From Lathyrus oleraceus (lineage: Eukaryota > Streptophyta > Magnoliopsida > Fabales > Fabaceae), in contig NC_066581.1 of the NCBI RefSeq assembly GCF_024323335.1, forward strand, positions 458,387,197-458,451,196: 64,000 nucleotides of DNA, written 5' to 3'. Shown piece by piece: positions 16,801 through 55,520 of the stretch. A program made the position numbers and the translations under genes. The notes below the pieces were generated by a model. The model did not search any database. It worked only from the letters and a program-made list of their open reading frames with translations, and was not told the origin of the DNA. The stretch's first letter is position 1. Each line of letters begins with the position of its first letter.

Positions 16801-16807
16801 TATATAA
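16801..16807 (+). promoter_or_regulatory. TATA box of the Ogre-like 5' LTR
   Basis: TATATAA is followed about 50 bases on by the C-rich leader and, 550 bases on, by the captured topoisomerase II fragment in sense orientation. The 3' LTR copy is at 27720-27726. Confidence 0.6.
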
Positions 16808-27062: not shown

Positions 27063-27078
27063 CTTAAATAGGGGCAAC
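27063..27078 (+). other. Polypurine tract of the Ogre-like element
   Basis: CTTAAATAGGGGCAAC ends immediately before the 3' LTR TG. Near-identical tracts precede the other two Ogre LTRs here (before 37252, and on minus after 63957). Confidence 0.85.
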
Positions 27079-30000: not shown

Positions 30001-31310
30001 CCATCCTCGATCACATATTGAGAGATATTTCTAAAAATCAAATACAATATCCAAACCTTTTTCTAAAAAACTCGAAAGAAAAGGACCGTTGGGATCAAGC
30101 ATTCTGGCGTAACCCTTTGAACATTTGATTCTCACCAAGTGTTCGTTGTCCATTAAATAATTTTCTTAAATAATTCGAATAAAAAAGGACCATTGGAATC
30201 TAGCATTCCAGTGGAACCCCGAGTGATTGATTCCGAGGCTCATGTCTCGTTCTCATCAAATATCCGTCTTTCAAACTCAAAAAAAAATACTTGATTTCTA
30301 CCTAAACACTTTTTCAATAAAGATGGAAATGGAACATGGTGTACACCGTGCATTCCTGAGATTAAGATTCAAGGTGGATGCCTTGCCTATCTTAGCTCTC
30401 GCCATTTTCTTAAAATTGTCAATGCGGTTTCTTCAAACCCCTTTCTCAATCAAATTCAAAACACTTAATCTTTATTAAATACTTTTTCCAGTAAGATGGA
30501 AATGGAACGTGGTGGATACCACGCACTCCTGAGACTAGGATTCGAGATGGATATCTCGCTCGTCCAAGTTCTCGCCATTACTCAAAATAAATCCAACCAA
30601 TCAAACTCTTTCTCTCCGTCGTGCGACTAATCAAAAACTTTTTTCATAAACGAAAGATATATTGTCTTAAGGTGATGCAAAACAATGTTTCGGCCATGAT
30701 TGTTGAGTCGAGATAAGTGACGCTTTTCCGAATGTAGATTTGTAAATCCATTCGATGTGTGGTATACGTCCGCTCCTCATCTGTTTTGGGTAAAACAATG
30801 TTTTCATCGATTAATACAATATAGCTTTCGCTAAAATCGACCAACAAACAAACATTTTCTACCCAGAACTACGTAAGCCTTGACTTCTCTATTGAGATAC
30901 ATAGGAGCAGGACTTGTAAATCTTGCCAGGCCCACTAATAAGAAAACTTAGGTTTAATCCTTCATTAAAAATCCAAAAATATCCTCCTCTCTTCTATTTA
31001 TTCTTTCCCTCATAATAACTTGAGAAGACTAACATAAGCTAACATTCAAAACGAAACTAACTAAATGGTTCCCGTTGAACACAACGGACGTGAGGGGTGT
31101 TAATACCTTCCCCTTGTGTAACCGACTCCCGAACCCTGATATTGGTTGTGACGACCATAATCATTGTCGTTCTTTCTTGGGTTTTATCGATATTTCCCCT
31201 TTCCTTTTTAGGAATAAATAAAGTTTGGTGGCGACTCTGTTCAGTCCATCATTGCGAGTGTGCGATTGCGCTTCGCTTATAGTCGTGTTCTCATTTTTCG
31301 AGGTGCGACA
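27079..31310 (+). repeat. Ogre-like 3' LTR, complete
   Basis: This 4232-bp LTR runs from TGTCATACCCC to GGTGCGACA. The last 280 bp contain the conserved Ogre end block with GGGTGTTAATACCTTCCCC and GGTGGCGACTCTG. It carries its own copy of the topoisomerase II fragment and four 49-bp AT-rich units at about 29465-29650. It differs from the 5' LTR by scattered substitutions and small indels, so the insertion is not recent. Confidence 0.92.
28282..28514 (+). pseudogene. Captured topoisomerase II fragment, 3' LTR copy
   Basis: This has the same extent and same one-base frameshift as the 5' LTR copy. It reads VNAADNKGRDP where the 5' copy has VNTADNK; the NAADN form is the one conserved in topoisomerase II, so the 5' copy mutated after insertion. 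The NNGNGVPVEI stretch also differs slightly. Since both LTRs share endpoints and frameshift, the capture predates this insertion and belongs to the element family. Confidence 0.82.
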
Positions 31311-31315
31311 CATTC
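31311..31315. repeat. Target-site duplication CATTC, right copy
   Basis: It matches 16153-16157 and directly follows the ACA end of the 3' LTR. Confidence 0.95.
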
Positions 31316-32537
31316 CATCAAACTATATCAGATGGATGTCAAGAGCGCATTCCTTAATGGTTATATATCAGAAGAAGTATATGTCAATCAACCTCCGGGT
31401 TTTGAAAACTCTAAATGTCCATAACACGTTTTTAAGCTAAAGAAATCACTGTATGGACTAAAACAAACTCCCAGAGCTTGGTATGAAAGATTAAGTAACT
31501 TTCTTCTGGAACATGATTTTATTAGAGGAAAGGTCGACTCTACACTCTTCTGTAAAAACATTAGAAATGATCTCATGATATGCCAGATATATGTTGATGA
31601 CATTACCTTTAGTTTAGCTAACCTCTCTGTATGTCATGAATTCTCTGAGCTAATGCAGATAGAATTTGAAATGAGCTTAATGCAAGAACTAAAGTTCTTT
31701 CTGGGAATTCAAATCAATCAAGCTTCAGAAGCTACCTACGTATATCAAAGTAAGTACATAAAAGACATTCTGAAGAAATTCGAAATGGTTGAATGCAAAC
31801 TTGCTAAGACACCAATGCATCCAACCTGCATTCTGGAAAAGGAAGAAACTAGCCAGAAGGTTTGTCAGAAGCTCTATCGTGGCATGATAGGCTCTCTTCT
31901 CTATCTGACGGCCACACGCCCTGATATTCTTTTTAGTGTGTATCTTTGTCCTAGATTCCAATCAGACCCTAGGGAATCTCATTTAACAGCTATTAAAAGA
32001 ATCCTCAGGTATCTGAAAGGAACTCCTAACCTTGGCCTGATGTATGAGAAAACATCAAAGTATAGGCTCTCTGGTTATTGTGATGCAGATTATGCAGGGG
32101 ACAGAATGGAACGTAAAAGTACATCTGAGAACTGTCAGTTCTTGGGAAATAATCTTATATCATGGGCTAGCAAAAGACAATCAACCATAGCCATGTCCAC
32201 TACAGAAGCAGAATATATATCAGCGTCACTCTGCACCACTCAGATGCTCTAGATGAAAAATCAACTTGAAGACCTTCTGATCTTTGAGAGTAACGTTCTT
32301 ATCTTCTGTGATAATACTGCTTCCATTTGTTTAAGTAAGAATCCTATATTGCATTCCAGAGCTAAGCACATAGAAATCAAACATCACTTCATTAGATATT
32401 ATGTTCAGAAAGGGATAATATCTTTAAAATTTATTGATACATACCATCAATGGGATGACATCTTTACTAAACCCTTCGCTGAAGACAGATTCTCTTTTAT
32501 TTTGAAAATTTTGAACATTCAAATCTGTCCAGAATAA
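31316..32537 (+). pseudogene. Maximus-like pol: rest of reverse transcriptase and RNase H
   Basis: The RT resumes with LYQMDVKSAFLNGYISEEVY, then LYGLKQTPRAWYERL, the catalytic QIYVDDITF, and the RNase H residues in GYCDADYAGD, STTEAEYISA and FCDNTAS. The end is typical of Sireviruses (DIFTKPFAEDRF). Two in-frame stops interrupt it: TAA near 31422 after ENSKCP, and TAG at 32250-32252 where a tryptophan is usual (after CTTQML). A terminal TAA is at 32535-32537. Confidence 0.9.
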
Positions 32538-33067
32538 ATGTGCTTCTCTGAAATAGAAAAATAAGACTCTGAATTAAACATCTGGCATCTTGATCTGACT
32601 CTGATGCTTCTACCAGTTAGGAGTCATCTGAATTAGAAATCCTCGAGACCCAACGCTTTGGTATTCCTGAAGATCAGATAAATCGACATGCGGAGCATCA
32701 TACGTCTGACCTTGAATCTTCTAGACAGCTGTCTAGCAGAAATCAAAAGACAAACTCTTGAAATCTCCTCGAGCAGTATGTTGATTTGGGGATTAGACCT
32801 CCATCATGGGTTGTAATCATTTCTCCCCTAAGCGTGTAAACTTGGATAATGTGCTTCATTTAATTTTTAACATCAAAACTACTTCTAATGTTGTCGTTTT
32901 GCATGCATCCAATTAGGTATAAATACATTTCACTCATCACAAGTTCACACTTTACACTCACGCCCTACACAAACCCTCTCTCTCTCTCAGTTCTTCATCA
33001 TCTTCAAGGATATCTTTATCTTCAACAAGTTCATCATCGTTCAAAACCTCCTTCAACTTTGTTCCAC
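32538..33067 (+). mobile_element. Maximus-like region between pol and the additional ORF
   Basis: This 530-bp noncoding stretch contains a TATA-like TATAAATAC near 32920, followed by a CT-rich tract (CCCTCTCTCTCTC) and the first ATG of the additional ORF at 33068. It may hold an internal promoter or splice acceptor for that ORF; this is an inference only. Confidence 0.5.
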
Positions 33068-37251: not shown

Positions 37252-38812
37252 TGTAAGACCCCAATTTTGACCCCAAGATCCCTGATACCATCTCATCATA
37301 TGCATTGGCAATGGGATCACACCTTGGTATCCTCCTTACCTTTCACTAATTGGGTTTGAATTCAGAGAGATCACCAAGCACATTTTTTTATTGTATCATG
37401 CTTTGTTTTTCATTATTTACTAACCAAAATACCAAAAATATGTCAATGTATAGTTTGTTGCTTTTGTATGTAGTGTGCATGTTCATCTATGCTCTATCAA
37501 GCTCACTAGGGATTAAGACCCTCAATGCAAGGAGTGAAATCAAGAATTGGTTCACATTGGCTCTAAGCATCATATATGAATCCTCATGATCTTCACATAT
37601 CATTTTGATCAAGAAATCATCAAGAGTTTGGAGTTTTTTTGCCTTGGAAACCCTAATTCATCTAGGTATCTTGTGTGACTTCTTCAACAAGTTTCTTCAA
37701 AAATTGATAAAATATTTCAAGGGATACTTCATATTTCATTATCTTACACATATATTATCCTCCATGGGTCCCAAAAGTCAATAGAACATCAAGCTAGCAA
37801 GTTGGTTCATGGTGGTTGACGAAAGAAAGTCAACTGATCAAAACTGGGGTTCCTTAGACCCTATCTCCTACAAATTTTTGTCATATTAAAATTATTCCAA
37901 GATCCAAGTTATTCAAAATGACATTCCAAACAACTTTCATGTTTAAGTCAAGATCTATTTTTGCTTGGAGGTCAACTTCCCCAGACCATAACTTTCTTAT
38001 TTTTTATGATATGAAATACATTAAAATTACATGATCAAATTCAATATGTCTACTTCAACTTTCATGTTTGGAGGAAGTTCAAATTCAGCTTGCAAATGCA
38101 TGTGCCAAGAGGAAACATTATAGGTCATTTTGGGCCACTACCATTGAACAAGTGATTTTCCTCAACTTCTAAAATGCATAACTCCTTCATTCCAAATCCA
38201 AATGAGGTCAAATTTGTGATCAAATTGAATAGGTTTGAAATATCTACAACTTTGATGAAGGAACGTTTCTCATTTGAAGTCCATAGAAAAAGTTATTCAA
38301 GGTGGAAGAAGTGAACATTTGACTTGGGACTTAGAAAATTTTCAAATATGTTTGATTTTCCAAACTTCCACCTCAAAATTCATCATGATCCAAGCTTCAA
38401 ATGAAAACGTATCCAACATTAAAGTTGTTCCCCTTGATCTCACCTTACCAAAAAGTCCAAGATCACCTCATTTGGCCAAATAATGAAGGACTTGCGCATG
38501 GGTGCAATATGAAGAACCATTTGGATGATTTCTACTTCCACTTCTCATACACGATTACATGACTTAACAACATGATTTCAGCATGATCCTCACTCATTTT
38601 TGGACCTTATTGCATCACTTGATGGGCCTATCACGCGCCCATGCAAGCATGCAAAGAGAATTACTCATTTTTGCCAAATTTGGAAGTGTGTGGAAATGAA
38701 TCTCCTTGGCTATAAATACAATCCTCATTGCTCATAATTAAGGACCTCATGCCCAAGCTTTGAACCTGCAATCCCAAACCCTCACCATTGAAGGATAATC
38801 TTAAAGATTTTC
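37252..38812 (+). repeat. Second Ogre 3' LTR, first part
   Basis: The LTR starts TGTAAGACCCCAATTTTGACC. A TATA box TATAAATA is at 38711-38718. It is interrupted at 38813 by the SIRE element and resumes at 47305. The open frame at 38274-38483 is LTR sequence and is not called. Confidence 0.82.
38808..38812. repeat. Target-site duplication TTTTC, left copy
   Basis: It matches 47300-47304 on the other side of the SIRE element. Confidence 0.92.
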
Positions 38813-40295
38813 TGAAATTCTAGTTATCAGACTTTCGATGTCACACGGGTTGTTATGACATCCGATTTTGCGCAGACAAGAATTATGCAGAACTTAAAAG
38901 TAAGTGCAGTAAATAACACAAGTAATTGTTTACCCAGTTCAGTCCAACATGACCTACGTCTGGGGGCTACCAAGCCAGGGAGGAAATCCACTATTAGTAG
39001 TATTAATTCAGACCTTAAACCAACTATTTAACCCTATCACTTAATACCTACCCAATGCAATTTCAATCTTACACTAAGATCAGAGTTCCTACTCACTCCC
39101 CCTCAATCACCTCAGTGATTACTACCTTTAATCAATATTAAAGACAATTATGAAGTCACACTTCAAACAACTCTTGATTGTGCTTCACAGCTTTAATCAA
39201 GATACACAGCACTCACGCTTAAAAGCTTAGAGTGACACAACACTTACAACTCAATGAACACCCTATACCAATGCAATCATCTATGTGATAATAGCTTGGC
39301 TTACAAGATACGTCTAATACAAGACACAAAAATACAGCAGTGAAGTATGATGGACACACTAAATCTTCACGCCTCAAAATCCCCAGTTCTGAATGAAGGA
39401 TTGCCATCCTTTTATATTGCAGCACTTGGGCCTTGTACTTGTATTTTCCTGAAATTAAGGTCACGCGTGTTCCCTTAAACTCCACATCTAGGTTACTAAC
39501 AAATAGGTTATTTGTTAGGTTCATTAATTGTAGCTTGGTTGTTGGTTTCCTGGATTTTCTCTCAGCTGTTGAATCCCTGAAGAATAGCCTGAGAAAAATG
39601 CTGAAACAGAAAAATTAAACAACCTACAATATAGCATATACTGTCAGGAATGAATGTCACAACATTCAGTTTGACATCCAAATCAAGGACCATATGCTAA
39701 GTCTGTTTTTCCTGAAAACAGACTGTACAAATTTGCTGAACTGTACAGGACCAATCTGTCCATACCTCAGTATCAGCGTACATTAATAAATGTCAAGACA
39801 TCCAATTTGACATTCACACACAGAGCCTAACATCAAGTATGTTATCCTCCTGAAGAACAGACTGAGATACATACTGAAGTGTAGCAGAAAACCACTCTGC
39901 CTATTGTTCAGTATATGTTGTCAATGATGAATGTCATAACATCCAGTTTGACATTCAGACAGTAGGCCTTATGCCAGGTCTGGTATTTCCTTGATAACCA
40001 GACTGAAACTAAATACTGAGTTCTAACAGAACACCAACTGTTCTATTCCTCAGTATCTGCTGACAGGGATGAATGTCATAACATCCAGTTTGACATTCAA
40101 TAAAACCTGTATTAGCTAATCCTGCAGTACACTACTCAGAATGTCATGACATCAGCCAAGACATCAGAGTACAGCTAGATATTCTAACTTACAATGCAGT
40201 CAAACAAACATCTTCACAGCATGTCATGACATCAGTCAAGACATTAGAATCTAGCTAGTGTTTTACCATACAATGCAGCCAATTAAACATTTACA
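38813..40295 (-). repeat. SIRE 3' LTR
   Basis: It reads TGTAAATGTTTAATTGG...AGAATTTCA on minus. The TATA region (AATATAAA on minus) is at 39411-39418. The 31-nt stem-loop is at 39172-39202. U3 dyads are at 39652-39679, 39788-39815, 39929-39956 and 40071-40098, and compact ATGTCATGACAT palindromes lie near 40142 and 40223. Confidence 0.92.
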
Positions 40296-41039
40296 AACTC
40301 CCCCTTTGGCAAATTTTTGGCTAAAACACTTTGCTCTCACAACAGAGTCCATAGCAGCGGAAAACATACATCTAGCGGGAAATTAACCTAGCTAATACAC
40401 TCAGAGTTGCAACACTCTCACACACATGGAAGTTAAATAAAAACTTCACATATCAGTACACATACAGAAGTTAAATAAAAACTTCTAATTGTAGCACACA
40501 CATACATACTCACACTCATTAGAAGTGGAACAGAGGATCTTGAATATTTGTCCTGAATATCTGTTTAGCAATAAGCAAAACAATCTGTTGTCCTGGGGTA
40601 TCACCTGTTACTCCCCCTTTTTGTCAAAAATGTTGCCAAAGCAACACTTTAAATTACAGATCCACATAACATAAACAGAATTACACATAAAAGACTGAAT
40701 TACAGACTTGGTTTTACTTCACAGTTTCAACCAAGTCAACACCCACTTGATCTTGCTTCACAGCTTTGATCAAGTAGTCACACACTCTTGCTTTACAGTA
40801 GGTACCACCATATCAGATGCCATGACTTTGTGTCTGACATCCAGAACCACTCCTGCATGAACATTGTCCTTGAACTCTTGCAGGTGCATAGGCTGCCTCA
40901 AGTTAGGATATCTCCTTAACCTCTTGTTGCCACACTTGTTGTAAGTGACATAGCTATGATCTGTTGACCAATCGAAGCACACTTCCAATTGTTTAATAGG
41001 CAGAGATATTAAACAATACATCCCAAACATCATTGGTTG
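40296..41039 (-). mobile_element. SIRE 3' UTR with two polypurine tracts and two stem-loops
   Basis: On minus, after the pol stop, come two 31-nt stem-loops (40745-40775 and 40706-40736, 39 bp apart), a small hairpin GTTGC-TTTG-GCAAC (40632-40645), a purine tract CAAAAAGGGGGAG (40611-40623), and finally GCCAAAGGGGGAGTT next to the LTR. The 87-codon open frame at 40770-41033 overlaps the first stem-loop and looks incidental. Confidence 0.8.
40706..40775 (-). ncRNA. Pair of 31-nt RNA stem-loops in the SIRE 3' UTR
   Basis: In RNA sense the upstream one has stem ACTTGATC/GATCAAGT (40745-40775) and the downstream one ACTTGGTT/AACCAAGT (40706-40736). Both enclose 15-nt loops: AAAGCTGTGAAGCAA and GAAACTGTGAAGTAA. 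The two stems differ at two positions and each change is matched on the other arm. Starts are 39 nt apart. These are structured elements within the element RNA and not separate genes. Confidence 0.65.
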
Positions 41040-44000
41040 CTATAAGTTCTCAGAGAGACATATTCCCAGTTTGCCCCTTAAGTTTTCAAACTGAGTAGCA
41101 TCCAGAGCCTTTGTATATATGTCATCCAATTGGAGTTCAGTGGCTACATGTTCCAAGGTAATCACTTTGTCTTCCACCAAATCTCTGATGAAGTGATGTC
41201 TAATGTCAATATGTTTGGTCCTGCTGTGTTGGATGGGATTCTTGGAAATATTGATGGCACTGAGATTATCACAGAACAATGTCATGACATTTTGAGAGAC
41301 ATTGTACTCAGTGAGCATCTGTTTCATCCAAACCAGTTGGGAACAATTGCTTCCAGCTGCTATGTATTCAGCATCTGCAGTGGACAGAGATACACAATTC
41401 TGCTTACTGAACCATGATATGAGATTGTTTCCCAAGAAGAAACATCCTCCTGATGTGCTTTTTCTGTCATCAGCACTCCCAGCCCAGTCAGCATCATAGT
41501 ACCCAGAGAGGACAGGCTCAGAACCATGTGAGTACAGCATCCCATAATCACAAGTCCCATTGATGTACTTGAGAATCCTCTTGACTTGATTCAAGTGGCT
41601 CACTTTGGGCTCTACTTGGTATCTAGCACACACTCCAACTGCATAAGAAATGTCAGGTCTACTTGCAGTTAGGTATAGAAGACTACCTATCATGCTTCTA
41701 TACAAGCATTGATCAACACTGGGCCCTCCATCATCTTTGGTTAACTTTAGATGAGTAGGTGCAGGAGTTCTCTTGTGCCTAGCATTATCCATACCAAACT
41801 TCTTAACTATGTTTTTGGCATACTTGCTTTGGGAGAGAAACATAGAATCCTCCATTTGGTTGACTTGCATTCCAAGAAAATAAGTCAGTTCCCCAACCAG
41901 ACTCATTTCAAACTCAGATTGCATTTGGTGAACAAAATGTTTTACCATTTGCTCTGACATTCCACCAAAAACTATATCATCCACATAGATTTGAGCAATC
42001 ATGATTTTGCCATCTTCATCCTTCACAAACAAGGTCTTATCTATCCCACCTTTTCTGTATCCATTTGAGGTCAGAAATTCAGTCAACCTTTCATACCAAG
42101 CTCTAGGTGCTTGCTTCAACCCATACAAGGCTTTCCTCAACTTGTACACATGCTTAGGTTGGTTAGGATCACAGAACCCTTTCGGTTGCTCCACATAGAC
42201 TTCTTCATTTAAGTAGTCGTTTAAGAATGCACTCTTCACATCCATTTGGAACAATTTGAACTTCAGAATGCATGCTACACCTAACAACAATCTGATGGAC
42301 TCAAGCCTAGCAACGGGTGCAAACATCTCATCAAAATCAACCCCTTCAACTTGAGTATATCCTTGAGCTACTAGTCTTGCTTTATTCCTAGTAATTACTC
42401 CTTTCTCATCAGACTTGTTTTTGTAGATCCACTTGGTACCAATGATGTTAGTCCCTTCAGGTCGTGGAACTAGCTCCCATACTTCATTCCTTTTAAACTT
42501 CTCCAGTTCATCTTGCATGGCATTGATCCAATATTCATCAGTCAGGGCTTCTTTCACATTTTTTGGTTCAACCTTGGATACAAAACAGGAATTTGAGCTA
42601 ATTTCCCTTGATCGGGTAGTCACACCACTATTGGGATCTCCTATGATAAGATCCTTAGGGTGGTCTTTCTGAATTCTGATTGATGGCATTTTGGTGGGTG
42701 CATCTACCTTATATTCAGTAGGAGTCTCCTGTACTTCTTCACACTTGACTGGTATGTTTGTTGTAGTATCAAGGAATGTTCCAACATCCTCTATGACATC
42801 GATTCCTTCCTCTTTATCATCCACAATAACATTTATGGATTCCATCAGGAGATTGGTCCTGTAGTTGAACACTTTGTACGCTCTGCTGTTAGTTGAGTAT
42901 CCTAGGAATATACCCTCATCACTTTTGGGATCCATTTTCCTTCTCTGTTCACGATCTGTGAGAATGTAGCATTTACTTCCAAAGATATGAAAGTACTTCA
43001 CAGTGGGTTTTCTGCCTTTCCATATTTCATACAGAGTGGAGGGGGTTCCTTTTCTCAAGGTGACTCTATTGTGAACATAGCAAGCGGTATTCATAGCTTC
43101 AGCCCAAAAGTGCATAGGGAGCTTCTTTGCATGAATCATAGCTCTGGCAGATTCTTGAATAGTTCTATTTTTCATTTCAACTATCCCATTCTGCTGAGGA
43201 GTTATAGGAGAGGAGAACTCATAACTTATTCCTTCAGACGAGCAGAACTCATCAAACTTGGAATTTTTGAACTCCGTACCATGATCACTCCTAATTCGGA
43301 CAACACAACTGTCCTTTTCCCTTTGAAGTCTGATGCACAGGTCTTTGAAGACATCAAATGTATCTGACTTCTCTCTGATGAAGCTTATCCACGTGTATCT
43401 GGAATGGTCATCAACCACCACATATGCATATCTCTTTCCACCCAGACTTTCCACCTGCATAGGTCCCATTAAGTCCATGTGCAGCAGTTCCAGAACTCTG
43501 GAAGTTGTAGGATGTCCCAGCTTCGAATGTGACATCTTGGTTTGCTTGCCCACCTGGCATTCTCCACAGACTCTTCCTTCATCAATAAGCAGTTTTGGGA
43601 TTCCTCTAACTGCTTCCTTGGATATGATCTTTTTCATTCCCCTTAAGTGTAGATGACCAAGGCGTCTATGCAACAGCTTCACCTCCTGTTCTTCCTTGGC
43701 AGAGGAGCACATTGTGGAAAAGTTTGAGAGCTTAGGTTCCCACAGATAACAGTTATCTTTGGATCTGGATCCTCTCATAACTTCTTGATTATCTCCATTT
43801 GTCACAACACATAGCTCCTTAGTGAACTGAACATAGTATCCTTGATCACACAGCTGGCTTATGCTGATGAGGTTGGCCGTCAGTCCTTTTACTAACAGTA
43901 CATTATTCAGTTCTGGGACTCCAGAGCAGTCCAGCTTACCCACACCTTTTATTTTTCCTTTAGCACCATCACCAACGGTCACATAACTGGTAGTGTGCGG

Positions 44001-45122
44001 TTGTATATCCACCAATATATTCTCCATACCAGTCATATGTCTTGAGCAGCCACTGTCAAAGTACCAGTCTTCTCTGGTAGATGCCCTTAGAGTTGTGTGA
44101 GCTAACCTAGCATACCATTGTCGCTTCTTGATGGGGACATAGTGCCTATATGTCTTATGCTTAGGTCTGACATGAGGAGCTTGGTTAGGGTAACCATGAA
44201 GCCTGTAGCAGAAGGCTTTTATATGGCCAAGCCTACCACAGTGGTGACATCTCCATTTCTGGAATTTCCTCTTCTGAAGATTATTCATCCTGGTTCCCTG
44301 ATGTTGAGACATTGGGTGTGACCTCCGCTTGAATTTCTGAACTTTAGCCTTTGGGCGTTTGAGTTTAGCTGAGGATTTTTTCACAAAGCCTAAATCAGAT
44401 ATGGTTCCAGACTTTTGTCCCACCTTTAGGATCTCTTCCAAGGTGTCAGTTCCTTTATTCAACATTCTGATGGATTTAGTCATTTGATCCAGCTTGGAGG
44501 TCAGCAAGGTTATCTCACCATTTAGACCCTCTATGACTATCAGATGCTTCTGTCTCTCATCTTCCAGCTCCTTGATGAGCTTCTTCTGCTTTTCTCCTTG
44601 TACACGCACTTCTGCACTGGTGACACATAGCTTCTTATAAGTTGCAGCAAGTTCATCAAAGGTCAGTTCATATGCACTTGAGTCATCATCAGTGGCACAA
44701 ACACTCGTTAGTGCAGTGACATGTTTAGCAGATTCTCCTTCAGATTCTCCTTCAGATTCACTTTCAGAATCTCCCTCAGACCATGTGACAGCTAGCCCCT
44801 TCTTTTGCATCTTGAGGTAAGTAGGGCATTCAGCTCTAATGTGTCCATAGCCTTCACATCCATGACATTGGATTCCCTTGCCTTGGTTGAACGTTTCTTC
44901 AGAAGTTGATCTTTTCCTGATGTCAGACGAGATGTTCTTGACATTTGGTCTACCTCTTTGATCAATCTTCTTCACGAACTTGTTGAACTGTCTCCCAAAC
45001 ATGGCTATGGCTTCTGATATGCTTTCATTACCTCCAGTATATCCTGCTTCTGACTCCTCTTCAGTATTTGATACAAAAGTTATGCTTTTGTTCTTCTTTT
45101 CAACATTCTCACACAAGCCCAT
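41040..45122 (-). CDS. SIRE gag tail and pol polyprotein
   Basis: The open frame is 1360 codons. Order and rough residues: zinc knuckle CHGCEGYGHIRAEC (86-99); Ser/Glu-rich and coiled-coil region (120-235); second knuckle CHHCGRLGHIKAFC (292-305); protease DSGCSRHMTG (356-365); pre-integrase HRRLGHLHLRG and CGECQVGK; integrase triad D550, D613 and E649 (35 residues between the last two); RT with YVDD (1046-1049); RNase H starting near D1210 (DADWAG). It ends GKLGICLSENL. Some conserved positions show changes that look like transitions, such as FDEMFAPV and LNDYLNEE. The polyprotein would cleave itself, copy and integrate element RNA. The first methionine is not the true start: gag continues upstream in the same frame beyond a TAA. 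Confidence 0.93.
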   Translation of the reverse strand: MGLCENVEKKNKSITFVSNTEEESEAGYTGGNESISEAIAMFGRQFNKFVKKIDQRGRPNVKNISSDIRKRSTSEETFNQGKGIQCHGCEGYGHIRAECPTYLKMQKKGLAVTWSEGDSESESEGESEGESAKHVTALTSVCATDDDSSAYELTFDELAATYKKLCVTSAEVRVQGEKQKKLIKELEDERQKHLIVIEGLNGEITLLTSKLDQMTKSIRMLNKGTDTLEEILKVGQKSGTISDLGFVKKSSAKLKRPKAKVQKFKRRSHPMSQHQGTRMNNLQKRKFQKWRCHHCGRLGHIKAFCYRLHGYPNQAPHVRPKHKTYRHYVPIKKRQWYARLAHTTLRASTREDWYFDSGCSRHMTGMENILVDIQPHTTSYVTVGDGAKGKIKGVGKLDCSGVPELNNVLLVKGLTANLISISQLCDQGYYVQFTKELCVVTNGDNQEVMRGSRSKDNCYLWEPKLSNFSTMCSSAKEEQEVKLLHRRLGHLHLRGMKKIISKEAVRGIPKLLIDEGRVCGECQVGKQTKMSHSKLGHPTTSRVLELLHMDLMGPMQVESLGGKRYAYVVVDDHSRYTWISFIREKSDTFDVFKDLCIRLQREKDSCVVRIRSDHGTEFKNSKFDEFCSSEGISYEFSSPITPQQNGIVEMKNRTIQESARAMIHAKKLPMHFWAEAMNTACYVHNRVTLRKGTPSTLYEIWKGRKPTVKYFHIFGSKCYILTDREQRRKMDPKSDEGIFLGYSTNSRAYKVFNYRTNLLMESINVIVDDKEEGIDVIEDVGTFLDTTTNIPVKCEEVQETPTEYKVDAPTKMPSIRIQKDHPKDLIIGDPNSGVTTRSREISSNSCFVSKVEPKNVKEALTDEYWINAMQDELEKFKRNEVWELVPRPEGTNIIGTKWIYKNKSDEKGVITRNKARLVAQGYTQVEGVDFDEMFAPVARLESIRLLLGVACILKFKLFQMDVKSAFLNDYLNEEVYVEQPKGFCDPNQPKHVYKLRKALYGLKQAPRAWYERLTEFLTSNGYRKGGIDKTLFVKDEDGKIMIAQIYVDDIVFGGMSEQMVKHFVHQMQSEFEMSLVGELTYFLGMQVNQMEDSMFLSQSKYAKNIVKKFGMDNARHKRTPAPTHLKLTKDDGGPSVDQCLYRSMIGSLLYLTASRPDISYAVGVCARYQVEPKVSHLNQVKRILKYINGTCDYGMLYSHGSEPVLSGYYDADWAGSADDRKSTSGGCFFLGNNLISWFSKQNCVSLSTADAEYIAAGSNCSQLVWMKQMLTEYNVSQNVMTLFCDNLSAINISKNPIQHSRTKHIDIRHHFIRDLVEDKVITLEHVATELQLDDIYTKALDATQFENLRGKLGICLSENL

Positions 45123-45129
45123 TTCAAAG

Positions 45130-45671
45130 GTTTAGAGAGAACCAATGAGCTCATCCACCTTCATGTTGCAGATATCTTGAGCCTCTTCTATTGCAATGAC
45201 CTTCATGGCAAATCTCTTAGGTAATGACCTGAGAATCTTTCTTACAAGTTTCTCTTCAGCCATTTTCTCACCTAAGCCACCAGAGGTGTTTGCAATCTCA
45301 AGAATATTCATGTGAAAGTCATGAATAGTCTCATCCTCTTTCATCCTCGGATTTTCAAACTTGGTGGTCAGCATCTGAAGTTTGGACATCTTCACCTTGG
45401 AGGTACCTTCATGAGTTATCTTGAGGGTATCCCAAACTTCCTTAGCCAGCTCACAGTGGTGCACCAGTCTGAAGATGTTCTTACTGATTCCATTGAACAA
45501 TGCATTCAATGCCTTAGAATTTCCAAGGGCTAATGCCTCTTGCTCCTTGTCCCACTCTTCTTCAGGAATCTGCACACTAACTCCATCTTCACCTGTCTTC
45601 GTTGGATGTTCCCATCCTTTGTTGACAGCTCTCCATACTTTGCTATCTAGAGACCTTAAGAAGGCTATCAT
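45130..45671 (-). pseudogene. SIRE gag N-terminal part, with two nonsense codons
   Basis: The frame (180 codons) encodes the capsid-type copia gag domain, with LVHHCELAKEVWDTLKITHE, LTTKFENPRMKEDETIHDF and VRKILRSLPKRFAMKV. It ends at a TAA (45132-45134) followed in the same frame by TFEMGL and the pol frame; related elements have glutamine there. Upstream, another in-frame stop (TAG, at about 45681) follows GSNYDD, where tryptophan is usual; the frame continues back to MLDG and NRPP. Both fit single C-to-T or G-to-A changes. Confidence 0.85.
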
Positions 45672-45802
45672 ACGGGGCTTCTAGTCATCATAGTTAGAAC
45701 CATCCAGCATGGGTGGTCTATTTGAGTGTCCTATATCCTTGTCAATGGTACTAGAAAGTAACTTCCCTAGATCTCACCCAGAAATTAACAGGCAGGGTGC
45801 CT

Positions 45803-45814
45803 GCTCTGATGCCA
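45803..45814 (-). other. Primer binding site, tRNA-iMet type (SIRE)
   Basis: The minus strand reads TGGCATCAGAGC, one base off the common TGGTATCAGAGC, two bases from the LTR end. Confidence 0.85.
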
Positions 45815-45816
45815 AT

Positions 45817-47299
45817 TGAAATTCTAGTTATCAGACTTTCGATGTCACACGGGTTGTTATGACATCCGATTCTGCGCAGACAAGAATTATGCAGAACTTA
45901 AAAGTAAGTGCAGTGAATAACACAAGTAATTGTTTACCCAGTTCAGTCCAACATGACCTACGTCTGGGGGCTACCAAGCCAGGGAGGAAATCCACTATTA
46001 GTAGTATTAATTCATACCTTAAACCAACTGTTTAACCCTATCACTTAATACCTACCCAATGCAATTTCAATCTTACACTAAGATCAAAGTTCCTACTCAC
46101 TCCCCCTCAATCACCTCAGTGATTACTACCTTTAATCAATATTAAAGACAATTATGAAGTCACACTTCAAACAACTCTTGATTGTGCTTCACAGCTTTAA
46201 TCAAGATACACAGCACTCACGCTTAAAAGCTTAGAGTGACACAACACTTACAACTCAATGAACACCCTATACCAATGCAATCATTTATGTGATAATAGCT
46301 TGGCTTACAAGATACGTCTAATACAAGACACAAAAATACAGCAGTGAAGTATGATGGACACACTAAATCTTCACGCCTCAAAATCCCCAGTTCTGAATGA
46401 AGGATTGCCATCCTTTTATACTACAGCACTTGGGCCTTGTACTTGTATTTTCCTGAAATTAAGGTCACGCGTGTTCCCTTAAACTCCACATCTAGGTTAC
46501 TAACAAATAGGCTATTTGTTAGGTTCATTAATTGTAGCTTGGTTGTTGGTTTTCTAGATTTTCTCTCAGCTGTTGAGTCCCTGAAGAATAGCCTGAGAAT
46601 AATGCTGAAACAGAAAAACTAAACAACCTACAATATAGCATATGCTGTCAGGAATGAGTGTCACAACATTCAGTTTGACATCCAAATCAAGGACCATATG
46701 CTAAGTTTGTTTTTCCTGAAAACAGACTGTACAAATTTGCTGAACTGTACAGGACCAATCTGTCCATACCTCAGTATCAGCGTACATTAATAAATGTCAA
46801 GACATCCAATTTGACATTCACACACAGAGCCTAACATCATGTCTGTTATCCTCCTGAAGAACAGACTGAGATGCATACTGAAGTGTAGCAGAAACCCACT
46901 ATGCCTATTGTTCAGTATATGTTGTCAATGATGAATGTCATAACATCCAGTTTGACATTCAGACAATAGGCCTTATGCCAGGTCTGGTATTTCCTTGATA
47001 ACCAGACTGAAACTAAATACTGAGTTCTATAAGAACACCAACTGTTCTATTCCTCAGTATCTGCTGACAGGGATGAATGTCATAACATCCAGTTTGACAT
47101 TCAATAAAACCTGTATTAGCTAATCCTGCAGTACACTACTCAGAATGTCATGACATCAGCCAAGACATCAGAGTACAGCTAGATATTCTAACTTACAATG
47201 CAGTCAAACAAACATCTCCACAGCATGTCATGACATCAGTCAAGAGATTAGAATCCAGCTAGTGTTTTACCATACAATGCAGCCAATTAAACATCTACA
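45817..47299 (-). repeat. SIRE 5' LTR
   Basis: It has the same length as the 3' LTR at offset 7004. TATA (TATAAAA on minus) is at 46414-46420. The stem-loop at 46176-46206 lies about 210 bases downstream of TATA, so it falls in the transcribed leader before the PBS. U3 dyads correspond to those of the 3' LTR. Confidence 0.92.
46176..46206 (-). ncRNA. 31-nt RNA stem-loop in the SIRE 5' leader
   Basis: Stem TCTTGATT/AATCAAGA, perfect over 8 bp. The loop in RNA sense is AAAGCTGTGAAGCAC, matching the 3' UTR loops except for the last base. An identical stem is in the 3' LTR (39172-39202). Confidence 0.65.
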
Positions 47300-47304: not shown

Positions 47305-49714
47305 TTTGAAAATCGAGTTTCAAATCTCCATTTGTTTTGAGATTGAAACTCCAAGAATCCATACCTTTTCTTGATCCTAATCACTTCCAACAAGCATCTG
47401 AAGCAAGGCCGAGCACAATTGGAAACAAGATCGTGCCAGTTTGAAGCTCCATTGAAGGTGAACTTTCAGAATTTTCTTTTCTTCGATTCTCCCTCAATTC
47501 TTCACCATTCTTTGTGATTTTTGGTTGTCTGAAGTCCTATCAATGTAGGCAAGAATATTGAGTTGCTTTGAGGTCAAATCGAAGCAACTCAGTTCATGAT
47601 CCTCAAAATTCAAATCCCTATATCTTTTTATATACTTGGAATTGGAGAAAATTGAGGCCAGATTTGAGCTCCTGAGCATTTTTTCTTTAAATCCATGTCT
47701 TTGTCTTTCATTTTGGTGATGGTTGATGGTGGAACAGTCCGGTGAGGTCCACCGGAGAAGAAGACCGGAGCCCTAGCTCCAGTGATGTGTTGTCACACAT
47801 CTCAGCCACAGGATCCAATTAAAATGTTTTAATCGCGTCCCTTGCTTTTGATAACCAAGCCTGCAGCGTGTTTGACTCAGGTACTTGTGGGATGCACGCT
47901 TCTGGCCATCAGATCTGCCACCTCAATTAATGAGGGAGATCTGATGGCCTTTGTTTTTTTGATTTTTTGATTTTATGTTTAATCCCTTTATTTTAATTAA
48001 TTCATATTAACTTCATTTTTTATCCAAAAAATATGAGACTTTCACCAAAAATCTTTAAATATTTTCCTCTTTCATTTTCTGAATTAAAATCATTTATTGG
48101 ATTAATTTTGATATTTTTCATGAATTAATTATTTTTGTGCATATTTTTAATTGTTTAAAAATACTTCTGACTTTTCAAAAATTATGAAATTTTTTGTCTA
48201 AGGTCCTTTGACCTTGTTTGACGTAGGATAAATCTCTTGGACATTTATTTGGTGTTTTAAAGAGGTTTTAGGTTTTGACCAAATTAATTTAATTTAAATG
48301 CATTTTTAATTTGATTTTTAATTGATTAATTGTGTAGAAATTATGTTGGTCATTTTTATTGGCTTGTGAAGTTTGACTATATGTTTGTGTCTTGGTCAAG
48401 GTTGATTTGACTTTTGTTGAGTTAAAATCATTGGATTTAGGGGATTGATGAAATGTACATTTCACCTCCCAAAATGAATGAATGATTTTAATTTGATAAA
48501 ATTCCTCCCATAACCAATTTGTGTTTCTCTTATATCCCCTCCCTCTTTATCTTCAATCCCATTCTCTCCCATCCTTTCCATTGACCAATGAAGTCTCAAT
48601 ATCCTAAGGCTAATTGGTTCATCAATAACCTTGTGTTAGATGAACCAATACAAGTATGGATGAGATATGTCCATCCTTTGATATTTTTCTTTTTGTGTAT
48701 GGTATGTTTTAGGAGTATGGTTCATTATACCATACCTCTAACATGCATTAACATCAAAATTTCTATTGCCCGATCTCAGATAGTTGTGACTTCTACATAA
48801 GTCCAATTACGATTGCTTAACATAGAGCTAAATTTTGACCCTAAAGTCATAGCATTCTAGTAAGTGAGATTGTAAGTCTCCCCCCTTTCATGGTATTGTA
48901 TGGAAACTTGGCCTTTTTCCTTCCTTTGGAAGATGTCTTGGTTCAAGGATCCATGCTTTTGAATAGAGGGTTGAGTGTTCTCCAAAGGATGACTTAATCA
49001 ATTGAAAAGCAAAACATCACTAACATCTAATCAACTAACATTTGCCTAACTTTTATCACATTGCTATTATTTTTCAAGTCATTTACTTTATGCAATTTAA
49101 ATTCAAGTTATTTACCATTTCATTTGTCATTTACATACCATTTAACTTGTTTATGTTTATATCATATTCACTTTGCTCATTTGAGCCATATATTGTGATT
49201 GTATATATTTGTTTATGTATTTTGTTTGTGTTTGTGGTCTTAGGACCTTAAAATACTTAATAAACAACAAAAACCCTAAAAAATGTTTGTGTGGACTGTT
49301 GGATTTGATCTGAGCTTTTGGACTTAGAGTTAGGCAACATTCCATATGCAAAAAGGACTTGGCCAATGCCAACATTTCTGAAACCAAGTTATTGTGATTT
49401 GAGCTCTCATCTGATGCAAGCATTGGGATCTTCATGAATTCATCTGCTACATGGTCTTGATGCAACTGTTACTTTGAACTTGTGTCTAAGGCCATATTCT
49501 GAGCTAATCAAGGAGTATGTCATCTGATACTTGAGAAGATAAAGAAGATTGTTAGCTGTAAGTTATTTGCTTGGATGTGACCATCTTTATTTGATGCCTT
49601 GCTCTTCATATTGATATTTGCTTGCTGATTATTGCATGGTTCAAAGTCCAAAGGGAAAATGGGTTTTCTATATGACATTCTTGTCTGTTGGATTTCATCC
49701 CATTGGTCAGATCT
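47305..49714 (+). repeat. Second Ogre 3' LTR, continued and truncated
   Basis: This resumes the Ogre LTR after the SIRE insertion. It is AT-rich without a recognisable gene. The LTR end is not reached, because LARD2 enters at 49715 (flank GATCT at 49710-49714). Hydrophobic open frames such as 49042-49251 are AT-rich shadows. Confidence 0.78.
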
Positions 49715-51374
49715 TGTAGATGTTTGATTGGCTGCATTTTATGTTAAAATACTAACTGGAGTCTAATGTCTTGACTGATGTCATGACATGCTTTGTAGAT
49801 GTTTGATTGGCTGCATGTTGTACTAAAACACTAACTGTACTCTGATGTCTTGACTGATGTCATGACATACTTGAGTAGTATGTTGCAGGTTTAACTAATA
49901 CAGGATTTACTGAATGTCAAGCTGGATAGTATGACATTCATCCCTGATAGCAGATACTGAGGTATAGAATAGCTGGTTGGCTGTTATAACTCAGTATGTA
50001 GTTCAGGCTGTTTATCAAGGGAATAACAGACCTGGCATAAGGCCTACTGTCTGAATGTCAAACTGGATGTTGTGACATTCATCAGTGACAGCATATACTG
50101 AATAATAGGCAGGTTGGTTTTTCTGCTTCAGTTCAGTATTTAATTCAGTCTGTTCTTCAGGAGGATAACAGACCTGGCATAAGGCCCATTGTGAAAATGT
50201 CAAATTGGATGTCTTGACATTTATTACTGTAAGGTGATACTGAAGTATAGACTGGTTGGTCTTTTACAGTACAGCATTTAGCACAGTCTGTTTTCAGGAA
50301 AATAACAGACTTAGCATATGGTCTATGTTCTGGACGTCAAACTGAATGTTGTGACATTCATTCCTGACAGCATATGCTAAATTGTAGGATGGTTAGTTTT
50401 TCTGTTTCAGGATTTTTCTCAGGCTATTCTTCAGGAATACAACAGCTGATCTAAAATCCAGGAAACTAACAGAAGAGCTAAATTCAAGAGCCCTAACAAA
50501 TAGCCTATTTGTTAGAACCCTAATATGTGGAAATTAGGTTAACTTGCCTAACCTTAATTTTAGGAAATACAAGTACAAGGCCCAAATCCAGTTGGGTGTT
50601 TAGGTTATAAATAGCAGATTGTAACCTAGGTTTTGTAAGCCTCATAGAATGAAAATTTAGGGGTGTGTGTGAGGTAAACCTCCCAACCTGTGGGAAGGTT
50701 ACCATGTATTTCTCAGTGTTCAAAGCTAAGAGTTTTTGTAACTCAAAGCCTGTAGGCAAGAGTGATTACGTGCTTGAATGAAGCTGTGAAGCAAGTTCAA
50801 GTTGTTTAGCATTACATTGTATTTGTAGTGATAGGAATGGAAACTGGAGGTTTCTATCTAGGAGTTCCTAGGTATAGATTGCATTGGGTAGGGATTAAGT
50901 GAAGAGTTGTAAACGGGGGAGTTTAACTCTGAATTAATACTGCTGATAGTGGATCTTCTTCCTGGCTTGGTATGCCCCCAGAGTAGGTGATGTTGCACCG
51001 AACTGGGTTAACAATTACCTGTGTTTTTACCTTCTGCACGTTATAATTCTGTCTAGTATAAAATAAGGTAAACCTGTAATGCTGTAACAGGTGATGTTCA
51101 AATCAATGTTGAGACATCATGCTGATAACTGTGCAGGCTCAATAGAAGTAAGTGTTGTGGTTGATCTCTGTTGTGTCTTTGTACCAGATGGACAGAACTG
51201 GGTGTTCTTCCATACTATGGTGATATATTAGCAGATGTCGTGACATCTGTGAATGTGTGCATATCAGTACTGGAATTTAATTTGTATAAATACCTTGTTG
51301 TATTAGTAATATTGTTGGATCAGATGTCATGACTTCGTGTAGAACATCTGAACTCTGACTACGCCAGAATTTCA
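49715..51374 (+). repeat. LARD2 5' LTR
   Basis: This LTR starts TGTAGATGTTTGATTGG, as the SIRE 5' LTR does, and ends CCAGAATTTCA, as LARD1 does. A 79-bp unit is repeated at its start (49715 and 49794). TATA box TATAAATA is at 50606-50613. U3 dyads are at 49912-49939, 50053-50080, 50195-50222 and 50332-50359. A CAGATGTC-GT-GACATCTG palindrome is at 51232-51249. Confidence 0.88.
50772..50802 (+). ncRNA. 31-nt RNA stem-loop in the LARD2 leader
   Basis: Arms GCTTGAAT and GTTCAAGT with loop GAAGCTGTGAAGCAA. As DNA two positions mismatch; as RNA both become G-U pairs, so all eight positions pair. It lies about 160 bases downstream of TATA. LARD1 has the same form at 1771-1801 and 7262-7292 on minus. 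Confidence 0.6.
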
Positions 51375-54300
51375 ATTGGTATCAAAGCAGGCATCCTGTT
51401 CTGTTTCTGGATGAGATCCATGGGTGATACTTTCTGGTATCTTGCAAGGAGTTGTCTTAGTACTGATGTTGGAACCTGTGGAAGGTTCTATGATGTCCCT
51501 GAATGGTCCCTTGAAGTAGGTGGATGGACTATTCATGACAGGAAATGTGTGGACCTGTCTTTGGAGGTTGGCAATTGGCCCTTGTGTGGGACAGCTGTGC
51601 CAGTATTGAATCATATTCAAACTTGGTATGGTCTTGGAGGCTGATCTGGTGAAGTGTGTGTTCATAGGTTGAGTTGTATTATGATTTCCGCTGCATAATA
51701 CCTGGCAAAACTCAAACTCTAATGTAGTTTCCCCTCATGTGGATGAAAGGCTGCTGTATTCAAGATTTCATCATAATCTACTGAAGATGTCAAAGATACT
51801 TGAGTCTCCTCAAGTCCACTCATCATGACGTTCTCACTTCAGGATGGTAAGAATCACCTGATCACTGATTTTGTTACTCTCTTGGGTAGTGTATATGAAG
51901 ACCTTGAAGACTTTCAAGTAGGGTTTGCTCCAAGGAGGTGGAACTAATGTTCTATGTGATGTTAGAACATGTTGTTCAACAAGTATACAGCTACTAGTTG
52001 AAGAGCAGATGTTTTTAGGTGTCAAACAAAGGGATACTTTTGTTTGGAACCTACTCCTGACCTGGAAGAGGAGACATTTGTGTGTGCTAAGTTGACAAGG
52101 GTAGGGTCAACTGTGTGTGTGCTCAAGAAGGTCACTTTTAGAAGTCTGATCTCTAGAAGTGGAGTTGGTTGAGATGTGACATTGTGCAATTTCCTGATGT
52201 TTGTCTTATTCCTGTAGATTGATCAGGGTTGAAGAGTTGTTCCCTGAAGCACTATGTTGTGTTGAAAGACAAGTCCCCTGGATGTTAGAAGTCAATAATG
52301 GGGTAACCTGATTGCTATTTCATCTAAGAGGTTTGGGACCATGAATCTTGTTATTCAAACACCATGCTCTGAAGTGGCAGTTCTTTCAAGGAGTGAGAAT
52401 ATGAAGATTCAGAGGTTGGTTGAGGTAGTATGCTCTGGCAATGCATATCTACTATTGACTAGTGTTGTTTTCTTCACTGGTACTTATGGTCAGGTGGAGT
52501 CTGATTGGTGCGATTGGAGTATGTATAGGTATAACTCATAGAGTTAGTTGCCACTGGTAGGGATGGTGTATGTCATGTTGAGACATTTGTGTGCAATGCA
52601 TGGATATTGGTGTGGAGTCTCCATGATTGTTAATTTGAGGGGGAGTTTTAGTTAACCTCCTCACGTTTGGTCAGCCTAGGGTCTGGTTGGCTGTTGACCT
52701 GTGTCTCATAGGTTCTGGTTGTTGTGTGACACATTTGCAAGGAAGGATTTATCTCTCTCTTTCCTAAGGGTGAATCTAATCTGGAAAGATTCTCAAATCT
52801 ATTGAGGTGCTTGCAAGCAAAAGATGTTGACACAAGAAGAGTATTTTCAAAGTATTCTTGTGGTGGAAGTATCTGAAAGGATAATTGGGAAGGGATTTAA
52901 AATCAATGTCTACTTGTGCCAAGTTCAAGTATTTAATTGATTATCCTTGGATCTCAAGACAATTGATGTTCCTAATGATGTTGGAACATCTCTTCTTCAA
53001 GACCTTGTGCAGAATCACAGGAAGGATAGTACATTGGTTTATGATCTATCTCTTTGGTGGCAGCAAAAGCATATGATCTCTGAAAAGGTTTCCTGGCGAG
53101 AAACATGTTCAGCCTTGGTGTGTACAAGAAGAAGAAGACATCATAGTCTTGATGGTGGTTACTTGGATCAGTTTATCTCTAATCTAAGTAAGGAATTGCA
53201 TTGGCTAATGCACACTGTGGAGTTAAGAACAAGTGGCAGCATTCTTAACATCATGGAAACAGCTTTGCTTTAGGAAGTGGAATCCTTGGTATAGTTGAAG
53301 GGTTAGTCTCTAACTGGTCCTTCTGAAGACTCATGCATCAGAGTGTCTGATGTCTTTGGAGAAGAAGCAGGGATTCATCAAGGTGTGAGCTTGGATGACT
53401 TAACTGCAAAACTGCAGGATGGAGGTTGTTTACTCAAACTTGGTTCCACAATCAAGTCTATGAGATCATTGAACTCTTGTTCTGTGTAGGGAGGAAGTTC
53501 TTTCAAGTGGCAGAAGAAGGAGCTGAATTCAACAGCTAAATGTTAAAACACAATGTTGTGACATTTGGTTCAACATCAGAATCTTAGTTGGTGAAGTGGC
53601 ACATCAACTTAAGATAAAAGGGTCTACAGAGTTGTAGATTGGGTACTTCAAAAAGATCGTTCTCATTGCAGTTCTTTGGAGTTGCTGGATGGAGAAGATG
53701 TTACATGTTCATGTCTTAGAGAATCTAAGTTTTGTTTAACATGTAGCTTGAAGTTCAAGTCTCACTTGGAAGGTCAGAATATCTTTCGGAGAAGTCTGAT
53801 AAACTTGGAGAGGTAAAAAAGTGGCATTTGGTCTATCTCAGAAGTGAGTTCGAAGAATCAAGATAATCAACATATGGCAGCTGATTATTCTTGAGGAAAG
53901 TCTGAGACAAATTACTGTTGAGCAGAAAAATAGTAAGTTGAAGATAAAAGGAGGTGTTTTCTATTCATCTCTTGGAGCTTGTGGTAGGAGTTCTAAGCTA
54001 TCTAGGGAAGATTATCTCTTGTAATGGGATGAGAAAGTATATGTCTCAATTTGTGTCTGGTTTCTTTTGGATCAAGCTGGTGACTCAGTGATATCTGAAG
54101 ATTATCAGATGGTGTTCTTTGTTATGTTGTGAGGATGTCCTAACTAATGTTAGAACATTTTGTGAAGTGGTTTTCTGTTCTGGTTAGAAGAGAGATTGAC
54201 ACAGAGTGTGGATGTGTTCAGCCAAGAGGGTTGAATAGAGGGTGTGCTCTTGAAGACATGAAGATGCGTCTTATGTTTTCCATTCATCAAGTGGTCTGGG

Positions 54301-54940
54301 TTCTCTTTGAATCAGGAAGTATGTGCAGGTCCAACTTTGGGGTGTTGGATATGTTCATGTGTGATCTCCAAGTTTCAAGAGGAGAGTTGGTTGTTCATGA
54401 CAGGGGGAGTTCTGTCCTTGTGCTGCAAGTAATCATCAAGCTTGTGGTCTATGAGTTCTCAGATAACAAGGTATGGCACCTTGTTAGTTTTTGGGATGAT
54501 GTGGTGTGTGTCAAGGTTGAGTGAGCAGAAGAATGTCTGACCGGATGTCATGACATTGCCTTGGACAATATTGTTATTTCCTTCTGAAACTTATATTCAT
54601 AAGGAAATATGGATGTGGTGTGTCTCATTATGATATATTAGAATGAGCCTGTGTGTTACAGTTGTGTGGTACAGGTGTTGGAGTTACTGTTATTTGATGT
54701 ATGCACAGATTTAGGGGGAAGAAAAGTACCCTTGTGCATGTGTGTGTTACTAGTAACCAGAAAGCTAGTAATTGTGTTGCTTCTGTTGCTGTTTAAACTA
54801 CTGTTATGTTGTTTAACTGCTGATAGTTTACCTTGTGAACAAAAAGGAAAGATATATGTTTCAGCCAAAATTTGCCAAAGGGGGAGCAATTTTGGTAAAA
54901 CAAAGACTGTTCACAAGATGTTATGTGTGATGTCTTAACA
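51375..54940 (+). mobile_element. LARD2 internal region, noncoding
   Basis: This is homologous on the plus strand to LARD1 internal sequence on minus. Landmarks include the decayed small frame at 53352-53489 and an internal purine tract CCAAAGGGGGAG near 54876-54887. Short open frames such as 54147-54524 are not supported by LARD1 and are not called. Confidence 0.75.
51377..51388 (+). other. Primer binding site, tRNA-iMet type (LARD2)
   Basis: TGGTATCAAAGC lies two bases after the LTR end. It differs from the common form by one G to A change. Confidence 0.88.
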
Positions 54941-55520
54941 TGAGACAACCTATCTGCCTGCTGGACTTCAAGAAAGTGTTCATGCAGGAGTATGTCAAGA
55001 TGTCAGACTCAACGTCATGGCATCTGATATGGGTGTACCTGCTGTGAAGCAAGAGTGTGTGACTACTTGATCAAAGTTGTGAAGCAAGATCAAGTGGGTG
55101 GTGTCTTGATCAAAGTTGTAAAGCAAGATCAAGAGGGGGTAGTCTTGATTGAAACTATGAAGTAAAATCAAGATTGTGTTTCTGTCAGTTGTGTAATTCC
55201 GTTTATGTTGGTCTGTAATTTAAAGTGTTGCTTTGGCAACATTTTTGACAAAAAGGGGGAGTAACACCTGTGATGCCCCAGGACAACAGATTGTTTTGCT
55301 AAACAGATATTCAAGATCCTCTAATCCAGAGGTTGTGCTGCAACTGATGTTCCACCTCCATGAGTGTGAGTGTGTTTTTGTGTGCTGCTATTAGAAGTTT
55401 TTATTTAACTTCTATGTGTGTGAGTGTGCTGCTACTCTGAGTGTATTAGCTAGGTCAATTTCCCAGCTAGATGTGTGTTTTCCGCTGCTATGTACTCTGT
55501 TGTGAGGCCAAAGTTGTTTT
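54941..55520 (+). mobile_element. LARD2 3' UTR, homologous to the SIRE 3' UTR
   Basis: The segment follows the SIRE 3' UTR closely in order: TGGCATCTGATATGG, the stem-loop array, the GTTGC-TTTG-GCAAC hairpin (55227-55240), the purine tract CAAAAAGGGGGAG (55249-55261) and CTCTGTTGTGAG. It breaks off about 20 bases short of the expected main purine tract, at the Angela-like LTR. Confidence 0.8.
55065..55173 (+). ncRNA. Array of three 31-nt RNA stem-loops in the LARD2 3' UTR
   Basis: Stems: ACTTGATC/GATCAAGT (55065-55095), TCTTGATC/GATCAAGA (55104-55134) and TCTTGATT/AATCAAGA (55143-55173). Loops, each 15 nt: AAAGTTGTGAAGCAA, AAAGTTGTAAAGCAA, GAAACTATGAAGTAA. Starts are exactly 39 nt apart. Each stem difference is matched on the opposite arm. 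Confidence 0.7.

Follow-up and report, generated by a model that had tools for sequence, protein, structure and literature searches.

How plant LTR elements that have no genes borrow the machinery of autonomous ones is, to our knowledge, little understood, and the 64,000 bases of DNA analysed here (the window) raise the question of what such a borrower must share with its donor. The window contains an element of the SIRE type and two coding-free elements (LARD1 and LARD2), and a 31-nt unit recurs in all three. We asked whether this unit is an RNA structure, and what its placement suggests about its function.

The SIRE element (38813–47299, minus strand) is bounded by LTRs at 38813–40295 and 45817–47299, which are 98% alike, and its gag and pol domains lie in the Pfam order Retrotran_gag_2, gag_pre-integrs, rve, RVT_2, that is, the copia-type order with integrase before reverse transcriptase that characterises Sireviruses. 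A PBS-like TGGCATCAGAGC is found at 45803–45814 (minus strand) and the terminal PPT, AGGGGGAG, at 40298–40305 (minus strand), with one further linker copy at 40611–40618 (minus strand). These features fit the Sirevirus description in the accessible text of Bousios et al. 2010 (PMC2829016), in which AGGGGGAG forms the terminal PPT 10 bp upstream of the 3' LTR and recurs in the linker, giving about four tracts per element; the dinucleotide after the terminal PPT is TT here, compared to AT in 20 of their 21 elements. The polyprotein frame includes two CCHC motifs, but an in-frame TAA in gag (45132–45134, minus strand) lies ahead of both, and this copy is therefore probably not autonomous and would not supply full Gag. 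The pol frame ends in TAG CAA CCA (41034–41042, minus strand), which we take to fit the UAG-CAR-YYA readthrough context of soybean SIRE1 env, and continues for 89 codons (40770–41039). Among the best 120 of 1525 gag relatives, those with a named organism were all from legumes; the top-ranked of the matches listed scored 84% and the best named was Trifolium medium (68%), with T. pratense at 65% and T. repens, T. subterraneum, Lotus and Lathyrus also among them. From these relatives the DNA is probably that of a papilionoid legume.

LARD1 (1–7866, minus strand) is a tandem LTR-internal-LTR-internal arrangement extending past the window edge. Its PBS occurs twice (6126–6137 and 635–646) and positions 1–2375 match 5492–7866 at 99.87% identity, thus it is best explained by unequal recombination or a duplicated unit and not by simple insertion. 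LARD2 (49715–55520, plus strand) comprises a 5' LTR and internal region, with no 3' LTR found within the window. Neither contains an ORF of 150 aa or more, and the LTRs of both are alike to those of SIRE over parts of their length (76–87%). Set against the definition of a LARD (LTRs, PBS, PPT and no coding internal domain), LARD1 has PBS and PPT in a tandem arrangement, and LARD2 lacks an exact PBS match. The LTRs of SIRE and LARD2 begin with a tandem repeat of ~79 nt, seen at 49714–49884 and in the opening part of each SIRE LTR. The window also includes a second Sirevirus-like element, with pol at 14332–16146 and 31251–32552 (35–55% identical in pieces) and a PPT/LTR-like junction at 35893. 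An LTR-type element nested within this pol interrupts it; its direct repeats are ~3.95 kb long (16157–20108 and 27078–31031, 97% alike), and between them lie two tandem arrays with units of ~49 nt and ~52 nt (23905–24702 and 25266–26096).

An earlier note on this DNA had reported ten copies of the 31-nt unit, and all ten proved to be correctly placed and oriented when checked in the window. Three form an array in the LARD2 linker (hairpins 1–3, at 55065–55095, 55104–55134 and 55143–55173, plus strand) and two lie in the SIRE linker (hairpin A at 40745–40775 and hairpin B at 40706–40736, minus strand; homologues of LARD2 hairpins 1 and 3, respectively), in each case spaced exactly 39 nt apart as the note had said. 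The remainder lie in LTRs: SIRE 5' LTR (46176–46206, minus strand) and 3' LTR (39172–39202, minus strand), LARD2 5' LTR (50772–50802, plus strand), and the right-hand (7262–7292) and left-hand (1771–1801) LTRs of LARD1 (both minus strand). Ten sites do not, however, amount to ten sequences, as the SIRE 5' and 3' LTR copies are identical and both LARD1 copies, also the same in sequence, sit inside the 99.87% identical repeat, leaving eight that are distinct; each identical pair was folded as one. The sample is small, as a single window supplies all three elements and the copies in SIRE and in the LARDs are related to one another.

Searching the 64,000 bases with the pattern CTTGRNYRAARYTGTGAAGYAMRNYCAAG, allowing up to three mismatches, returned exactly these ten copies against an expectation of 0 (0 in 100 dinucleotide shuffles), which is a measure of specificity only because the pattern was derived from the copies. 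A covariance model built from the ten and run over the window with filters off scored them at 49.0–53.7 bits. Of the 60 rows, those below the ten, left out of the count, were antisense matches of seven of the ten copies (15.2–19.3 bits), a site at 37584–37614 on the minus strand (17.5 bits, E 0.044) and others at no more than 14.7 bits. The same scan of the window found no copy in the LARD1 linker. It found none in the second Sirevirus-like element either (whose 5' LTR was not located), which makes it unlikely that Sireviruses as a genus share the hairpin.

The note had proposed an 8-bp stem closed by a 15-nt loop. The stem is present, but in all eight distinct copies the middle holds a 3-bp inner helix and a tetraloop, so that the unit runs, in every copy, from the first arm of the 8-bp stem through RAA, a triplet, the tetraloop, a second triplet and AA or AC to the second arm. 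The two helices are separated by an asymmetric, purine-rich (A-rich) 3x2 internal loop. The two triplets pair with each other throughout (GCU/AGC, GUU/AGC or ACU/AGU), and the tetraloop is GUGA in six of the eight distinct copies, GUAA in LARD2 hairpin 2 and AUGA in LARD2 hairpin 3, conforming to GNRA in seven. Single-sequence folding gave the same structure for all eight, apart from the loss of the outermost wobble pair in LARD1, and folding of the alignment gave the same 11 pairs. Pairs 2–5 (CUUG/CAAG) and the unpaired A10, A11 and A22 are invariant, while both sides change at pairs 1, 6, 7, 8 and 12, the inner stem thus covarying too.

Folding with 30–150 nt of flanking sequence gave a less even picture. 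The outer stem has a low pairing probability in both SIRE LTR copies (0.24–0.58); among the other eight copies, seven stay at or above 0.92 and LARD2 hairpin 2 falls to 0.77 at one flank length. Pairing in the inner helix is weaker for LARD2 hairpins 1 and 2 (0.74, once 0.58), and on the antisense strand, too, the outer stem can form (probability 0.38–0.99).

The compensated stem differences named in the note are real, as are the G-U pairs in the LARD leaders, and the preference for RNA over a DNA dyad is supported. All 88 pair cells of the eight distinct rows are standard pairs (shuffled mean 88.0%), five pairs display double changes (as many in 3 of 500 shuffles), and the covariation score is 0.461 compared to a shuffled mean of 0.212, a value reached in 0 of 500 shuffles, with structures slid along the alignment scoring at most 0.062. 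The number of further pair types was not unusual (9, compared to 7.7 in shuffles; 112 of 500 as high). Six of the 88 cells are non-Watson-Crick, and all six are G-U on the sense strand, which would be A-C on the other. As shuffles ignore relatedness, we also used four homologous contrasts (SIRE A with LARD2 hairpin 1, SIRE B with LARD2 hairpin 3, LARD1 with LARD2 leader, SIRE with LARD1 leader), for which the chance of keeping all 11 pairs is ~0.50, 0.04, 0.30 and 0.02–0.03, respectively. In the second, SIRE hairpin B and LARD2 hairpin 3 differ at five positions, four of which make up two compensated pairs. Joint simulation of the four contrasts under a simple model (transition fractions 0.4–0.75) gave P ~2e-5 to 7e-5 for at least four double-compensated pairs and 1e-5 to 6.5e-4 for the retention of all pairs, although the last two contrasts are incompletely independent because LARD1 is common to both. 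The covariation is strong among these eight distinct copies of three elements, a set drawn from this window alone, and within the window it is well supported that the 31-nt unit is a structure of the sense-strand RNA and not of DNA. Since paired letters changed together, the RNA shape has probably been retained for a reason.

The copies were also said to occupy both leader and 3' UTR of an autonomous element and of LARDs. This holds for SIRE and LARD2, which have both a leader copy and a linker array, but only in part for LARD1, which has the leader copy alone. In all three elements the nearest TATA-like box on the upstream side lies 166–214 nt before the start of the leader copy, as expected of a leader position, and the copy should therefore be transcribed, as predicted from sequence. 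The LARD LTRs hold further TATA-like matches. Between the SIRE and LARD2 leaders, identity is 0.58–0.68 in windows over the hairpin stretch and falls to 0.23–0.32 in windows either side, while a block further downstream is more conserved (0.81–0.84); the leader hairpin is thus a conservation island, but not the only one. The two linkers show 74% alignment identity, with conservation of both the array and a block around the internal PPT, and other leader and linker blocks are conserved as well as or better than the hairpin. A block of 55 nt around the internal PPT is identical between LARD2 (55212–55266) and SIRE (40606–40660, minus strand), and holds a GUUGC-UUUG-GCAAC dyad.

Conservation between LTR and linker copies extends beyond the 31-mer to a cassette of 46–55 nt that includes the stretch just upstream of the hairpin. 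In the leaders this stretch, whose sequence is conserved, contains a possible second hairpin of the same layout, at 50740–50764 (plus strand) in LARD2, where its tetraloop precedes the one in the leader hairpin by 35 nt, at 46214–46238 (minus strand) in the SIRE 5' LTR and at 7300–7324 (minus strand) in LARD1, with inner triplets GCU/AGC in SIRE and GCC/GGC in the LARDs. Folded by itself it forms in all three leaders, and with 45-nt flanks in LARD2 and SIRE; with flanks of 60–150 nt the modelled pairing probability is 0.00–0.53, and in LARD1 it is low at all four flank lengths. After flank folding we therefore regard this second hairpin as no more than possible. In the linkers, the counterpart of this stretch codes for the last part of a short frame whose stop lies within the 5' arm of the first hairpin; in SIRE the TGA in the 5' arm of hairpin A ends the 89-codon frame after pol, and the linker array lies directly downstream of this last reading frame.

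Rfam gave no match at the gathering score across the whole window, and when two stretches were scanned permissively, one yielded a single match far below its cut-off and the other none; a known Rfam family was accordingly rejected. The sense pattern had no exact match in IMG/VR or in GTDB contigs, and a 500-aa integrase/reverse transcriptase piece had no relative in IMG/VR, but these collections are expected to hold few or no plant sequences and the misses therefore say little. Among the titles and abstract beginnings listed from an open-access library, we found neither a description of this hairpin nor a defined RNA signal of such a kind for Sireviruses. In the accessible text of the Sirevirus motif paper (PMC2829016) the words hairpin and stem-loop are absent, though a 'stem loop' is named at the terminal PPT. 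A protein-coding explanation of the array was rejected, as its frames are short and only partly open, and one antisense frame of 74 aa across the LARD2 array had no protein relative. Kissing-loop dimerisation via the tetraloop was also rejected, GUGA not being self-complementary.

What, then, might the hairpin do? The note had suggested packaging, dimerisation or trans-mobilisation, with which the anatomy of the copies is consistent. We propose, tentatively and at somewhat less than even probability, that the unit is a selected hairpin of the sense transcript serving as a Gag-type recognition site, which selects element RNA for particles and allows LARDs to be carried in trans. What the analysis shows is sequence, computed fold, covariation, strand and position, whereas selection as the cause, Gag binding, packaging and trans-mobilisation are inferred. 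The genomic RNA of SIRE and LARD2 would present the hairpin in its leader and an array of two to three units in its linker; a SIRE-type Gag, or a partner bound to Gag, would recognise it, so that the RNA would be chosen for particles, and coding-free LARDs that keep the hairpin could then be carried in trans. If LARD1 is mobilised via the hairpin, the leader copy would be the essential one, since LARD1 lacks the linker array. CCHC knuckles in retroelement Gag bind RNA, and given the two CCHC motifs of the SIRE frame and a borrower that needs RNA signals but no genes, recognition by Gag or a Gag partner is the most economical reading. In its favour is the retention of the leader copy in all three elements, two of which lack any ORF of 150 aa or more. 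Counting against it are the missing LARD1 array, the second Sirevirus-like element without a hairpin, the low in-context pairing of the SIRE LTR copy, the possible antisense outer stem, the TAA in gag, the small sample, the equal or better conservation of other leader and linker blocks and the unremarkable number of further pair types.

It is also conceivable, though on balance doubtful, that the hairpin, with its leader copy and its several copies in the 3' linker, is a shared tag that lets LARDs borrow Sirevirus machinery and may dock its GUGA loop into the invariant CU:AG stem pairs of another copy, the kind of pairs that such loops prefer. Docking of this kind would connect RNA ends, or two RNA molecules, with no need for kissing loops. 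Since the hairpin is common to donor and borrower, Gag recognition of LARD RNA becomes directly testable.

Several other explanations must be weighed against packaging. One, which we consider unlikely, is that a host protein reads the hairpin as a signal for RNA export, stability or translation, with no packaging role. The 3' constitutive transport elements of animal retroelements provide a model, the linker array directly follows the last reading frame, asymmetric internal loops such as that of the hairpin are a usual protein-binding feature, and export or stability would benefit an RNA without genes as well. However, the single leader copy is explained less directly and LARD1 has no linker array, and we know of no host factor.

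A neutral origin, in which a 39-nt (13-codon) tandem duplication near an old 3' coding end was copied to the LTR and its arms were matched by hairpin-templated correction and not by selection, seems improbable to us. It would account for an LTR and linker cassette larger than the hairpin, for the greater similarity of the LARD2 leader cassette to the SIRE linker (78.7% over 47 nt) than to the SIRE LTR (72% over 79 nt), and for a spacing divisible by three with some frames across the array partly open. Yet arm correction would not be expected to leave the 3x2 asymmetry uncorrected throughout, to let departures persist as G-U only, or to yield a covarying inner helix and a GNRA-type loop.

Still less probable is a structure used in reverse transcription, in which hairpins near purine tracts select or expose PPTs or join RNA ends for strand transfer. 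Bousios et al. 2010, in the text accessible to us (PMC2829016), proposed such a role for an inverted repeat that is distinct from the present hairpin and lies at the terminal PPT. Sense AGGGGGAG tracts do follow the linker arrays, 80 nt downstream in LARD2 and 87 nt downstream in SIRE, and octamers in both SIRE LTRs (46100–46107 and 39096–39103, minus strand) lie 68 nt downstream of the hairpin, but the hairpins are away from the terminal PPT, and LARD1 has PPTs yet no linker hairpins. Finally, the unit might act as double-stranded DNA, a dyad to which a transcription factor binds. Its counterpart would be the palindromic RM boxes, which in the accessible account of other Sireviruses also occur in both LTR and linker (PMC2829016). 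This reading is very improbable, as the mismatches are all sense G-U, the arms stand 15 nt apart around a conserved structured middle, and the hairpins lie downstream of the TATA-like box, not upstream, with no CGG-CCG core.

In the accessible text of PMC2829016 RM boxes, like the hairpin, are non-coding repeated dyads of LTR and linker in Sireviruses, and the SIRE element here has the same AGGGGGAG tracts; but RM boxes are palindromic, almost always contain a CGG-CCG core and cluster on the upstream side of the TATA box, whereas no CGG or CCG occurs in the 31-mers. The inverted repeat of the same paper spans the terminal PPT/LTR junction, and neither motif, as described there, has the two helices, the GNRA-type loop, the 31-nt length and the place downstream of TATA that mark the hairpin. 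According to the accessible text of PMC3735527, the plant element BARE2 lacks Gag but is packaged into particles and has conserved dimerisation and packaging signals; the words hairpin, stem-loop and secondary structure are absent from that BARE1/BARE2 account. In Ty1, a member of the copia superfamily, the TIPIRT domain is likewise an RNA structure that acts in cis close to the 5' end, with a role in packaging and dimerisation, but its kissing loops pair mutually (PMC5454406, as far as its accessible text goes), unlike the GUGA tetraloop. The stem-loops of LINEs and SINEs belong to non-LTR elements and lie at the 3' end, but as described in the accessible part of PMC6510757 they share with the hairpin the property of being common to an autonomous element and its non-autonomous partners.
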